Of a DNA stretch of 44,334 nucleotides, positions 3,113 through 7,152 are shown piece after piece. The first letter of the stretch is position 1, and every line of letters begins with the position of its first letter. The translations under genes were made by a program, and so were the position numbers. A model generated the notes under the pieces. It did not search any database, was not told the origin of the DNA, and worked only from the letters and a program-made list of their open reading frames with translations. The stretch lies in the NCBI GenBank assembly GCA_003216955.1, contig QCHZ01000006.1, forward strand, positions 50,707 to 95,040, read 5' to 3'. This stretch comes from Prochlorococcus sp. AG-402-I21. GTDB lineage: Bacteria; Cyanobacteriota; Cyanobacteriia; PCC-6307; Cyanobiaceae.

Positions 3113-3778
3113 TTAATCTCCTAGTCTTCTTAGGAAATTGCTGTATGACTGGAAAATTAAATCTAGTTCATCTGATCTTCCATGTTTTGCTAGTAGGCCT
3201 TTAGCTCCAGCATCAAGTCCAAATAAGAAATTTCTATCTTCATTATTTTGTACATAGCTTTGAATCCATCCTACACATACATAACGTTCACCATCTTTGA
3301 CTTCAGCAACAGAGTGTAGTTGTGTGCTTGGATAAATTACAATTTCTCCAGCAGAAAGTTTTATTCTTTCAGTTTTATTTATCGTCTGAATACATAATTC
3401 ACCACCTTTATAATCCTCTGGCGGGCTTAAAAATAATGTAAAAGATAGATCACTTCTCCCTGATGGCATGTAAGGATTATCAATATGTGAGCCATAACCA
3501 TGACCAGCTAAGGATTGAGTAAACATAACTCCATGGATAAGGCTAGGTAATGTAAAACTTTTTAGAAGAGGATTTGAAATTATTTTGTCAACAATAATAT
3601 CTCTGAATTTGATTGCCATATTTGAATTTTTATCTAATTGAAAATTAGACTTGATTTTTGCAGCATGACTTCCTGCGGTCTTTTTCCCATCTTGCCATGA
3701 GGATTTTTCTGCTTTTAGTTTTTTAATTATTTTAAGAGCTTCCGATTGATCGATTAGTGAATGAGTTAAATATTCCAT
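3113..3778 (-). CDS. PKHD-type Fe(II)/2-oxoglutarate hydroxylase (PiuC-like)
   Basis: A cytoplasmic dioxygenase of the prolyl-4-hydroxylase fold, 221 residues, close to the usual PiuC length of about 225. The iron ligands are visible as His98-Ile-Asp100 (in HGYGSHIDNPYM) and His155 (in STQLHSVAEV). Arg165 (GERYVCVGW) is in position to bind 2-oxoglutarate. In other bacteria piuC lies beside iron-uptake genes and is iron-repressed; its substrate is not known. Here it is divergent from a FutA-type iron-binding protein with about 150 bases between the two starts, which supports a role in iron limitation. A shared Fur-controlled promoter is likely but not proven. Confidence 0.88.
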   Translation of the reverse strand: MEYLTHSLIDQSEALKIIKKLKAEKSSWQDGKKTAGSHAAKIKSNFQLDKNSNMAIKFRDIIVDKIISNPLLKSFTLPSLIHGVMFTQSLAGHGYGSHIDNPYMPSGRSDLSFTLFLSPPEDYKGGELCIQTINKTERIKLSAGEIVIYPSTQLHSVAEVKDGERYVCVGWIQSYVQNNEDRNFLFGLDAGAKGLLAKHGRSDELDLIFQSYSNFLRRLGD

Positions 3779-5026: not shown

Positions 5027-5113
5027 GGAGAGGTGGCTGAGTGGTCGAAAGCGAACGACTCGAAATCGTTTGATAGCTAAAACTATCCGTGGGTTCGAAT
5101 CCCACCCTCTCCG
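5027..5113 (+). tRNA. tRNA-Ser (anticodon CGA)
   Basis: An 87-base class II tRNA. The acceptor stem GGAGAGG pairs with CCTCTCC and the discriminator base is G. The anticodon loop is CTCGAAA on a five-pair stem (AACGA/TCGTT), giving anticodon CGA for serine UCG codons. A long variable arm (GATAGCTAAAACTATC) and the T-arm GTGGGTTCGAATCCCAC follow. The 3' CCA is not encoded. Confidence 0.97.
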
Positions 5114-5149
5114 CTTTTATAGACATTTGTCCATGCATTGTCTAACAAA

Positions 5150-5181
5150 CCCTAGTCTATGCAATAGATCTAGGGCTTTTT
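5150..5181 (+). terminator. Terminator after tRNA-Ser
   Basis: CCCTAGTCTAT, loop GCA, ATAGATCTAGGG with a one-base bulge, then CTTTTT. It lies 37 bases past the tRNA 3' end. Confidence 0.8.
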
Positions 5182-5440
5182 AATCAAGCAGATTTTTGGT
5201 CCATCTGTCATTTGTGGTTTGATTTGTGGTGGGATTTTTGTAGTGAGTTAATAAATTATTCTCTTACCTGCTCAGATGAAACTAAGAGAGTCGTTCACCC
5301 TCTTCGTATCCTTAGCATTGTCTAATAATTAAATTTTAAAGATAAAGATAAAGATAAATAAACCTAGTCTTTATATCCTTTTCTATGTTTATAGTTTAGA
5401 TTCTAAAATAATTTCAACTTAGTAAGTCTAGGTTATAAGC
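5182..5440. other. Non-coding spacer between tRNA-Ser and the sulfotransferase-like gene
   Basis: With the terminator just before it, the gene-free stretch after the tRNA is 327 bases. No coding frame is supported. It contains the first copy of the 17-bp direct repeat (5224-5240) and an AAAGAT simple repeat near 5338-5355. Such debris is common on the 3' side of tRNA genes used as integration sites, but no integrase gene or recognisable remnant was found. Confidence 0.45.
5224..5240. repeat. 17-bp direct repeat, copy 1 (tRNA-Ser side)
   Basis: TTGTGGTGGGATTTTTG, identical to 6321-6337. The two copies bracket the sulfotransferase-like gene, 1,097 bases apart. The core GGTGGGATT equals the reverse complement of part of the tRNA-Ser T-arm (AATCCCACC). 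Confidence 0.75.
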
Positions 5441-6202
5441 ATGAAATATAGCATTTTCCATACAAGTCAATGTGGATCTACTTTATTGGCAACTTTACTT
5501 AAGGAGAAGAGAAGAACATATTCAGAACCTTCATGGGCATGCGCAGGTGATATGTCAAATATTTTTTCTGCTGAAGATGAAACTATTGTTAAATATCCAA
5601 GTTTTGCTTCACTAGCATGCAGGATTATGCCTGGTAAGAAGATTTTTATCTTTCGTGGATTAAAAGATCATTTAGAAAAAATAACTTCTAAACCTTCTGC
5701 TATGGAAAAGCATTTATTACGACATTATCCGTTTAATAAACATGTAAGAAACTTGTTCCCAAAAGTAGTTGCAGATAATGATTTAAAAAAATTAGCATTT
5801 GTTTGGGCACATATGTATCTTGATGCTTTTTACTCTCAAAATGTCTTATTTATAGATGCTAATAAGTTTTTTTTAGAACCAATAATTACACTAAAACTAA
5901 TAACTAATTTTTTTGGTTTTGACCTTGTTGAAGATTTAGAACCACTAAATTTTTATGTGAAGAAAGATTTTCTTGCTACAGAAAATAATCTTAGTGAAAT
6001 CATACCAACAGAGAAAATACCCTTCAATATTAAAGATGGATATATTAAATCGACTAATTTTTCTGAAATAGAGAATTGGGTTCAAGAACATATATTTAGT
6101 CAAATAATTTCAAACGAGATTTTCCCATTATTTCGTAATAAAGATGGAGAGCCTATATATTCGTTTATTCCTGGAAAGACCATTTTATTGGAAAAAAATT
6201 GA
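5441..6202 (+). CDS. Sulfotransferase-like P-loop protein
   Basis: A 253-residue protein that begins directly with FHTSQCGSTLLATLL (residues 5-19). This resembles the 5'-phosphosulfate-binding loop of PAPS-dependent sulfotransferases. SEPSW soon after, and KKIFIFRGLKDHL (near 70-82), where the 3'-phosphate-binding strand is expected, also fit. If active, it would transfer sulfate from PAPS to a carbohydrate or other acceptor. The C-terminal half is not diagnostic. It stands alone beside tRNA-Ser, bracketed by a direct repeat and very AT-rich, consistent with an acquired gene. The general family is likely; the substrate is unknown and activity is unproven. Confidence 0.6.
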   Translation: MKYSIFHTSQCGSTLLATLLKEKRRTYSEPSWACAGDMSNIFSAEDETIVKYPSFASLACRIMPGKKIFIFRGLKDHLEKITSKPSAMEKHLLRHYPFNKHVRNLFPKVVADNDLKKLAFVWAHMYLDAFYSQNVLFIDANKFFLEPIITLKLITNFFGFDLVEDLEPLNFYVKKDFLATENNLSEIIPTEKIPFNIKDGYIKSTNFSEIENWVQEHIFSQIISNEIFPLFRNKDGEPIYSFIPGKTILLEKN

Positions 6203-6220
6203 GAATTATCCTTAGACCAT

Positions 6221-6244
6221 AGGGTTTAAAACCCTTCGAGGGTT
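6221..6244 (+). terminator. Hairpin after the sulfotransferase-like gene, two alternative pairings
   Basis: AGGGTTT (6221-6227) can pair with AAACCCT (6229-6235), or that arm can pair with the next AGGGTT (6239-6244) across a TCG loop. A T-run follows only about 12 bases later, so it may be a weak terminator or an mRNA-end stabiliser. Confidence 0.4.
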
Positions 6245-6320
6245 GGACATTGAATTTTTTAGGATCAAAAATTTCTGGAATATTTGCTAGGATTTCTGGA
6301 AATATTGTGCGATGAAATCA

Positions 6321-6337
6321 TTGTGGTGGGATTTTTG
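6321..6337. repeat. 17-bp direct repeat, copy 2
   Basis: TTGTGGTGGGATTTTTG, identical to 5224-5240. Flanking bases are only loosely similar: TGGACC follows this copy, and TGGTCC occurs 20-25 bases before the first. Confidence 0.75.
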
Positions 6338-6510
6338 GACCGACATCAAGAAATATTTCTCCATTAGTTTCTGACTTGCTTTTTTGTAGGGAAAGCTAAG
6401 TTCACTCTATCCGTTTTGATTTGAAGTTTATTTTCTATCAAGTATTTTCTTGAACACTTTTAAACCGACCGTCTTTATTGTGCTTAAAATGAAGAAGAGG
6501 AAGAAATGAT

Positions 6511-7152
6511 TTGAAAAAATTTGATAAGTCTTTATCTTTTTACGATGAAGCAATTAACTTGATTGATTTAGATGATTACGAAGGGGCCATTGAATCTATT
6601 AAAAAGAATATTGATTTTCTTGAAAGTCATGATGAAATAGCTTTAGGATATTTAAACTGTGGTTTTTTGAATGATAAATTGGGAGATAATCTCTCAGCTA
6701 TCGATGACTTCTCAAAGTCAATTTATTTTGAAGATAAAATAGATATTATTACTGAAAGGTCTAAAGACATTTCATATAGTGGTAGAAGTAATTCTAGGTA
6801 TAAAAATGGAGATTTTAAGGAAGCAATAGAGGATAAAAGAAAAGCAAAAGAAATTAGATTATTTGAAATTGATAAATCTAATGAATTTGATAGTCCTAGA
6901 ATAGATTATAAAAATATTTTATTAGGGACTTTTCTAAAAATGAATCTAGAACCAAAATATAATGTTTTGATTAAAGGTTCACAAGTACGAAAAAGTAAAT
7001 ATGATTTAATTGCAGATTATAAAAAAGTAATTAGTAATAAAAGAAGAGAAGAGGTAATTAAAAAATTAGAGATTATTAGTGAATCCAAGTATAAACATGG
7101 AGATTATAAAGGCTCTATTAAAGCTATTAGAAGGTCAGAGAAATATTATTGA
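6511..7152 (+). CDS. Short TPR-repeat protein
   Basis: A 213-residue, lysine-rich protein with TPR-like helix pairs. Examples are YDEAINLIDLDDYEGAIESIKKNI (about 11-34), ALGYLNCGFLNDKLGDNLSAIDDFSKSI (about 44-71) and SYSGRSNSRYKNGDFKEAIEDKRKA (about 88-112). A last unit, SESKYKHGDYKGSIKAIRRSEKYY, ends the chain. TPRs mediate protein contacts, so the partner is unknown. No signal peptide is seen. The only in-frame start is TTG at 6511. A six-codon ATG frame (MKKRKK, 6489-6509) with a purine-rich site ends one base before it, so either translation is coupled or a frameshift has split the true N-terminus. It lies in the tRNA-Ser accessory patch. Confidence 0.65.
   Translation: MKKFDKSLSFYDEAINLIDLDDYEGAIESIKKNIDFLESHDEIALGYLNCGFLNDKLGDNLSAIDDFSKSIYFEDKIDIITERSKDISYSGRSNSRYKNGDFKEAIEDKRKAKEIRLFEIDKSNEFDSPRIDYKNILLGTFLKMNLEPKYNVLIKGSQVRKSKYDLIADYKKVISNKRREEVIKKLEIISESKYKHGDYKGSIKAIRRSEKYY

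Follow-up and report, generated by a model that had tools for sequence, protein, structure and literature searches.

Lambda-type tyrosine integrases act on attachment (att) sites in which a core for strand exchange is accompanied by arm-type direct repeats at fixed spacing. In Prochlorococcus, Hackl et al. 2023 reportedly described tycheposons. Serial insertion of cassettes at a tRNA gene, with repeats of the tRNA end, is described at tRNA-Lys in Methylophilaceae (PMC10872708) and in Ca. Actinomarinales (PMC7771536), and integron arrays without integrase (CALIN) have been described (PMC11389934); PMC2784084, PMC8776855 and PMC12416821 served as background only. Here we analyse a stretch of 44,334 nucleotides from Prochlorococcus sp. 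AG-402-I21 (contig QCHZ01000006.1), referred to as the window, in which a small patch follows the tRNA-Ser(CGA) gene. We suggest, with a probability of roughly 0.68, that this patch consists of two tandem, decayed, integrase-less cassettes at the tRNA 3' end, whose repeats are putative arm-type integrase sites. It looks like an island of gene swapping whose recombinase is now elsewhere.

Much of the gene variation between Prochlorococcus strains sits in islands, and many tRNA-linked patches without a recombinase resemble dead relics. A short end signature predicting the acting protein would make such patches identifiable and testable as mobile units, would allow islands to be divided into cassettes by computer, and would help explain how streamlined genomes gain and lose single genes, one at a time.

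The tRNA-Ser(CGA) locus in the window and in relatives

The features of the locus, all on the plus strand, are:

5027..5114 (+), tRNA-Ser(CGA), the integration target (ARAGORN); it borders empty and filled intervals alike in relatives
5102-5113 (+), tRNA 3' end CCACCCTCTCCG, the core sequence; exact match at G000:C6:55808-55819
5114..5306 (+), first cassette, about 190 bp, without recognised gene, reaching from the tRNA end to the first core copy
5212..5240 (+), repeat pair of the first tail, 12 bp apart: partner TTGTGGTTTGAT (5212) and 17-mer (5224-5240)
5295..5306 (+), core copy TCACCCTCTTCG, two mismatches to the tRNA end, closing the first cassette; tail model match at 5212-5303
5307..6413 (+), second cassette, about 1.1 kb, which contains the cargo gene
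5441..6202 (+), cargo gene for a sulfotransferase-like protein of 253 amino acids (predicted model, fold search, relatives)
6321..6337 (+), 17-mer of the second tail, 81 bp ahead of the core
6402..6413 (+), core copy TCACTCTATCCG, three mismatches, closing the second cassette and followed by the empty-site flank; tail model match at 6322-6413
6511..7152 (+), TPR protein gene (Pfam PF07719), conserved flank outside the island and a core gene in relatives

Wherever searches with CobQ, TPR or sulfotransferase gave a usable place, we fetched the interval from tRNA-Ser(CGA) to the TPR gene; 26 genomes have both of its ends on a single contig (the window and 23 other loci, plus G022 and G021). It is an integration hotspot: 10 intervals are empty (77-97 bp) and 16 are filled, with sizes from 337 bp to about 24 kb (G021), and the first-cassette interval is absent from 10 of the 26 resolved genomes. 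Of the 41 genomes of the genus, 26 besides the window's own have a full-length TPR gene and two more have one that is cut by a contig end. In the remaining 12, the CobQ gene next to it is likewise absent, weak or truncated, and the locus was therefore probably not assembled there. Since the TPR gene is core, the island spans only about 5114-6413. The sulfotransferase gene was found in three of the 41 genomes.

In empty sites, the tRNA end runs directly into a largely conserved flank (TATTGxxTAGAAGTT and variants). A core copy with at most three mismatches stands exactly 109 positions ahead of the TPR start in 6 of 14 filled intervals, the window included, and this spot is the start of the empty-site flank, which identifies the tRNA 3' end as the duplicated att core. 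The remaining filled intervals have a junction that is unrecognisable or further degraded. In the window, the core copies at 5295 and 6402 therefore delimit two tandem cassettes, and neither an integrase nor any PF00589 place was found in the patch.

A sequence-only reading of the window had suggested that the patch may be a decayed island at the tRNA 3' end that has lost its integrase, carrying a sulfotransferase-like gene, a short TPR gene and two exact copies of the 17-mer TTGTGGTGGGATTTTTG at 1,097 bp from each other. A strain-variable, decayed insertion without integrase agrees with the empty intervals and the rare sulfotransferase gene, and the sequence scan confirmed both 17-mers (5224-5240 and 6321-6337). 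The cargo assignment holds with a moderate fold model; the TPR gene is real and belongs to the core genome rather than to the patch, and two cassettes take the place of one decayed island. Synteny in all strains and a repeat unrelated to tRNA genes, both of which would speak against such an insertion, were looked for and neither was found. With up to three mismatches, the 17-mer has four matches in the window against 0.24 expected, a number reached in none of 100 shuffles. In the own genome (1.73 Mb, 96% complete), the exact 17-mer occurs only in its two window copies, with zero for a backward-read control, so that a genome-wide search yields no exact copy beyond this tRNA locus; with up to three mismatches it occurs at 14 places, against 5 for the control. 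A 16-mer within it is present in one of the 41 genomes, the window's own.

Tails, cargo and integrase

The patch is closed by tails that recur in other genomes. Judging from a gapless core-anchored alignment, ends share a tail of roughly 105 bp which appears to be built of two 12-bp direct repeats (at about -92 and -80), a spacer of about 70 bp and the 12-bp core, with variant units where our repeat pattern failed. Over the 56.7 kb of 15 filled intervals, 24 cores with two mismatches or fewer lie on the tRNA strand and none on the opposite one (shuffle mean 0.15). The repeat pattern, which includes the 17-mer, matches 39 times against 0 on the other strand of the same intervals (shuffle mean 0.35), overlapping matches being counted separately, such as two in the first window tail. 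A pattern match lies within 160 bp upstream of 10 of the 24 cores, and 13 of 16 repeat-to-core distances below 160 bp are 80-82 or 92-94 bp, as direct repeats of arm-type sites would be at a fixed distance from the core. In both window tails, the 17-mer forms the proximal repeat, beginning 71 bp before the core in the first and 81 bp in the second; its near copy at 5212 (three mismatches) is the partner repeat, 12 bp upstream of the copy at 5224.

Across 52 ends from both serine tRNAs, self-similarity reaches 0.51 at lag 12, against 0.23-0.33 at all other lags between 5 and 20. Within an end, the two units agree at 7.06 of 12 positions, compared with 4.43 of 12 for units of different ends, and none of 20,000 permutations reached 7.06. 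In the first window end, the units agree at 7 of 12 positions; the second window core, with its three mismatches, lies outside both the two-mismatch counts and the 52-end set. At tRNA-Ser(GCT), the core sequence is CCTCCCTCTCCG, and the units of a pair, likewise near -92 and -80, are TGTTGTGAGGAG, TGTTGGGTGGAA or GAGGGGGATTTT. The unit sequence thus varies among element families and changes jointly within a tail. A folding attC-like site was not supported, as consensus folding gave 0 base pairs across 22 tails.

A tail model (R1) was built from 22 of 28 collected ends, all of other genomes, with both window ends held out; L061:1269, L067:7630, L081:1600 and L087:6944 were left out of the alignment (overlapping, out of register or repeat-less) and L088:4961 was moved by one base. 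In the window, it matches 6322-6413 (26 bits, E 3.2e-7) and 5212-5303 (16.5 bits, E 2.9e-4). A weaker match is the tRNA end (11 bits, E 0.015), after which E rises to 0.064. The model finds 43 places in 20 of the 41 genomes, and only the window locus in the own genome. We assigned 36 of them to the tRNA-Ser(CGA)/TPR locus and three to a tRNA-Ser(GCT) on the same stretch; three others have a GCT-type core with no tRNA on the stretch, and one is unassigned (G021:C11). The own tRNA-Ser(GCT) locus gave no match to the model. About 120 bp past this tRNA (L155:1635-1662, G000:C11), paired G-rich repeats GTGTGGGGGGAAA TGTGGGGGGGAA resemble the units of G006. One of the 36, a clear tail near a contig end of G032 (L076:1700-1791, tRNA not on the contig), runs opposite to the TPR gene orientation. 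On the other side of the TPR gene, between it and a ferredoxin gene, G007 contains a 3.5-kb insertion (L066:496-4054). The 3' end of the TPR gene is duplicated imperfectly on its flanks (about 144 bp, 85%); the tail model found no tail in the insertion, so it probably arose by another mechanism.

In viral contigs, three of four tail-repeat patterns gave nothing and one gave 3 contigs, which were rejected as tails since the model matches the repeat part only, a coding repeat (NNTS) in L226 and L227. A distant BLAST search against phages for a record carrying the patch returned 7 records, all inside the tRNA gene.

The cassettes are modular. In nineteen pairs of ends, the alignment is confined to the tail, e.g., the two ends of G006 and those of G010 and G035, with 91-99% identity over 91-113 bp, and in 14 pairs no further similarity is found in the 700 bp upstream. 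A wider comparison of 57 ends gave 34 pairs whose similarity stops 75-125 bp ahead of the core; for 30 pairs the limit falls at 79-101 bp, i.e., at the repeats. Only pairs with this upstream limit were counted, and the check for similarity further upstream covered the nineteen pairs alone. These 57 ends include four chance core matches in the conserved flank (L087 4530, L086 1139, L075 3656 and L068 5074), and the remaining tail-class pairs include some that share downstream sequence only. Entire cassettes are also common to several strains. The window cassette has 85% identity to its counterpart in G013 over 5406-6185, and no DNA similarity between them was detected in 5114-5405 or 6186-6444, where the tails lie. 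By these comparisons, the same cargo occurs with different tails, and similar tails on different cargo.

The 5441-6202 protein has no Pfam family at E<=0.1 and no match in PDB by sequence. Its AlphaFold model is moderate (mean pLDDT 71), and a fold search with it lists sulfotransferases among 50 PDB rows (best E 2.3e-4, TM-scores 0.23-0.45), including the sulfotransferases Teg12, Teg14 and StaL. We consider it, with moderate confidence in the predicted fold, to be sulfotransferase-like. A third copy of the gene is found in G022, about 4.9 kb downstream of a tRNA-Ser(GCT). Nothing convincing was found in PHROGs, and viral contigs hold 14 relatives. One with 57% identity (L139:3614-4315) belongs to a viral contig of 8.4 kb that also has three tRNA genes and where frames read by eye, with no family search run, include a PhoH-like gene and 2OG-Fe(II) oxygenase-like genes. 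This type of cargo may be shared with T4-like cyanophages. Among the Pfam matches listed (25 of 108 families) for the window protein and 93 open reading frames (ORFs) of at least 100 amino acids in the filled stretches that were fetched, the unrelated G007 insertion contributing two, we found TPR (11), Sulfotransfer_3 (5), FkbM methyltransferase (4) and DUF4282 (3).

One relative carries a recombinase at the site. In G040, a 427-amino-acid integrase (L065:3674-4954, minus strand) with PF00589, Arm-DNA-bind_3 and Phage_int_M (Pfam) lies directly past tRNA-Ser(CGA). Repeats precede its gene at interval positions 203, 215 and 235, and at the far end of the element they occur at 3646 and 3658, i.e., 92 and 80 bp before the core at 3738. 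It is the one element seen here that carries the integrase with repeats on both arms. No relative of the enzyme was found in viral contigs, and in GTDB contigs only itself and one short match in Prochlorococcus AG-409-L14 were found. In the latter (L138), four repeat units precede a core and the short match (residues 123-169) lies near a second core on the opposite strand; it is possibly a broken integrase element. Elements of about 0.9-1.0 kb in G022 (L128:12806-13813) and G008 (L088:2702-3569) have repeats at both ends and a related ORF of 124-125 amino acids, with no integrase, and look like internal-deletion derivatives of an integrase-carrying element. In G005 (L092:1053-1074), an 11-bp tandem repeat, TTTTGGGGAAC x2, stands upstream of a distant relative of the integrase (30% identity) and possibly represents its arm sites. 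Diverged integrases can escape Pfam; PMC10187409 reports a class in picocyanobacteria that had gone unrecognised, mostly by tRNA-Phe or tRNA-Cys.

Proposed mechanism and its alternatives

We propose that each cassette would consist of cargo, or nothing, and a tail of about 105 bp. A tyrosine integrase of the G040 type, targeting tRNA-Ser, most likely binds the paired repeats through its arm-binding domain and swaps strands at the core. If the tRNA end recombined with the core of a circular cassette, that cassette would come to lie beside the tRNA and older ones would be shifted downstream. As an integrase is not recognisable in most cassettes, their movement was probably in trans. Binding by the integrase rather than by another protein, movement in trans and the order of insertion are what we infer from the sequences. 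Decay of the window's own two tails is likely.

More tentatively, and at somewhat less than even odds, the two serine tRNA genes may host an integron-like cassette system, in which a portable tail of about 105 bp would fit many genes and rare arm-matched integrases would move cassettes in trans between strains and between CGA and GCT sites. The cargo upstream of shared tails is unrelated in 14 of 19 pairs, not in all, which lowers these odds slightly.

Several points weigh against decayed cassettes with arm-type sites. The integrase is found at this site in one genome only, with no PF00589 place in the other filled tRNA-Ser(CGA) intervals or the fetched GCT stretches. The repeat pattern was composed after the sequences were seen, and it has no match within 160 bp of 14 of the 24 cores, among which some have variant paired units and others none. 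Shared descent of the rows inflates the permutation test on unit co-variation, and the units of one end agree at 9 or more of 12 positions in 24 of the 52 ends. The window tails themselves deviate, with -71 instead of -80 in the first and two and three mismatches in their cores; the G010 fill has no core within three mismatches, and the G032 tail is an exception to the one-strand rule. Finally, five of the 19 tail-only pairs show some further similarity upstream: the G006-G010 and G010-G035 pairs have other short stretches of 51-89 bp in common, the overlap is 32-33 bp in two pairs, and the G008-G022 pair shares the rest of the element.

The main rival to binding by the integrase is that the paired repeats do belong to the recombination site and are bound by an accessory factor, either a directionality factor of the excisionase type or another DNA-bending protein. 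Paired direct repeats at a fixed distance from the core would suit such a factor equally well; however, the G040 integrase has an arm-binding domain, and the repeats flank its element and precede its gene, as arm sites would, which makes us regard the accessory factor as unlikely, at perhaps one chance in a handful. Slightly less probable is that the tails are inert relics of one old element family, conserved by descent and with no present movement. The degraded window tails, the patch devoid of integrase and the whole cassettes common to strains are in line with this idea, but the closely similar tails of G006, G010 and G035 close different cassettes, similarity between tail pairs breaks off mostly at the repeats, and the units of a tail co-vary.

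The two other explanations can be set aside almost entirely. Regulatory or terminator sequences at gene ends would account for the position of the tails downstream of genes, but not for tails that end in a copy of the tRNA 3' end, have no common predicted fold and, by the model, occur only at the window locus in the own genome; we give this very little credence. Hardly more plausible is the proposal of the sequence-only reading that the 17-mer itself is the duplicated att sequence of a single decayed island, derived from the tRNA T-arm. The sulfotransferase gene is flanked by the two exact 17-mers, and GGTGGGATT is a genuine nine-base match to the reverse complement of the T-arm. However, the empty/filled junctions in relatives lie at the tRNA 3' end, which speaks against the 17-mer as the crossover site, and the first copy lies about 110 bp within the inserted DNA; it is the tRNA 3' end that is duplicated, in the cores at 5295 and 6402. 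Repeats at the equivalent position beside the same tRNA read TGTTGTTGGATT, GTGCTAGGGAAA and others, paired 12 bp apart and with no T-arm match, and the same layout is found at tRNA-Ser(GCT), whose T-arm differs; these differing units do not support a T-arm origin. As repeat units differ among element families yet co-vary within a tail, we take the T-arm resemblance as probably a coincidence. Two decayed cassettes with arm-type sites thus remain our preferred reading of the patch.

Comparison with known systems

Tycheposons, which PMC10872708 and PMC10187409 characterise second-hand, are reportedly alike in integrating at tRNA genes of Prochlorococcus, with a tyrosine recombinase and variable cargo. 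They measure 4-200 kb (PMC10872708), whereas the window patch has 1.3 kb and no recombinase; a tyrosine recombinase is present at the site in the G040 relative.

With integrons and CALIN (PMC11389934), the locus has in common cargo joined to a short site for recombination, tandem arrays with a single orientation, sites that are similar while the genes differ, and an integrase that would act in trans. It differs in its anchor at a tRNA-Ser end, in having no predicted folded site and in an integrase with an arm-binding domain rather than IntI: no PF00589 place lies in the patch, and the G040 enzyme has Arm-DNA-bind_3, with no IntI-specific model run. Lambda-type att sites are alike in the combination of a core with direct-repeat arm sites at fixed spacing, present on both sides in G040, and unlike in that most cassettes here keep the right-end repeats only and have no recognised integrase.

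In the literature searched, with most subscription journals outside its coverage, no description of paired-repeat tails at tRNA ends was found; the portable integron-like tail is apparently not described there, and we withhold a claim of novelty. Paired 12-bp repeats at a fixed distance from the core and tails reused on different cargo are not mentioned in the available parts of the papers on additive flexible genomic islands. In those islands, as here, cassettes are added singly beside a tRNA gene, and every cassette bears a direct repeat of the tRNA end as its mark. As to its kind, the locus is a known one, a tRNA-anchored additive island.

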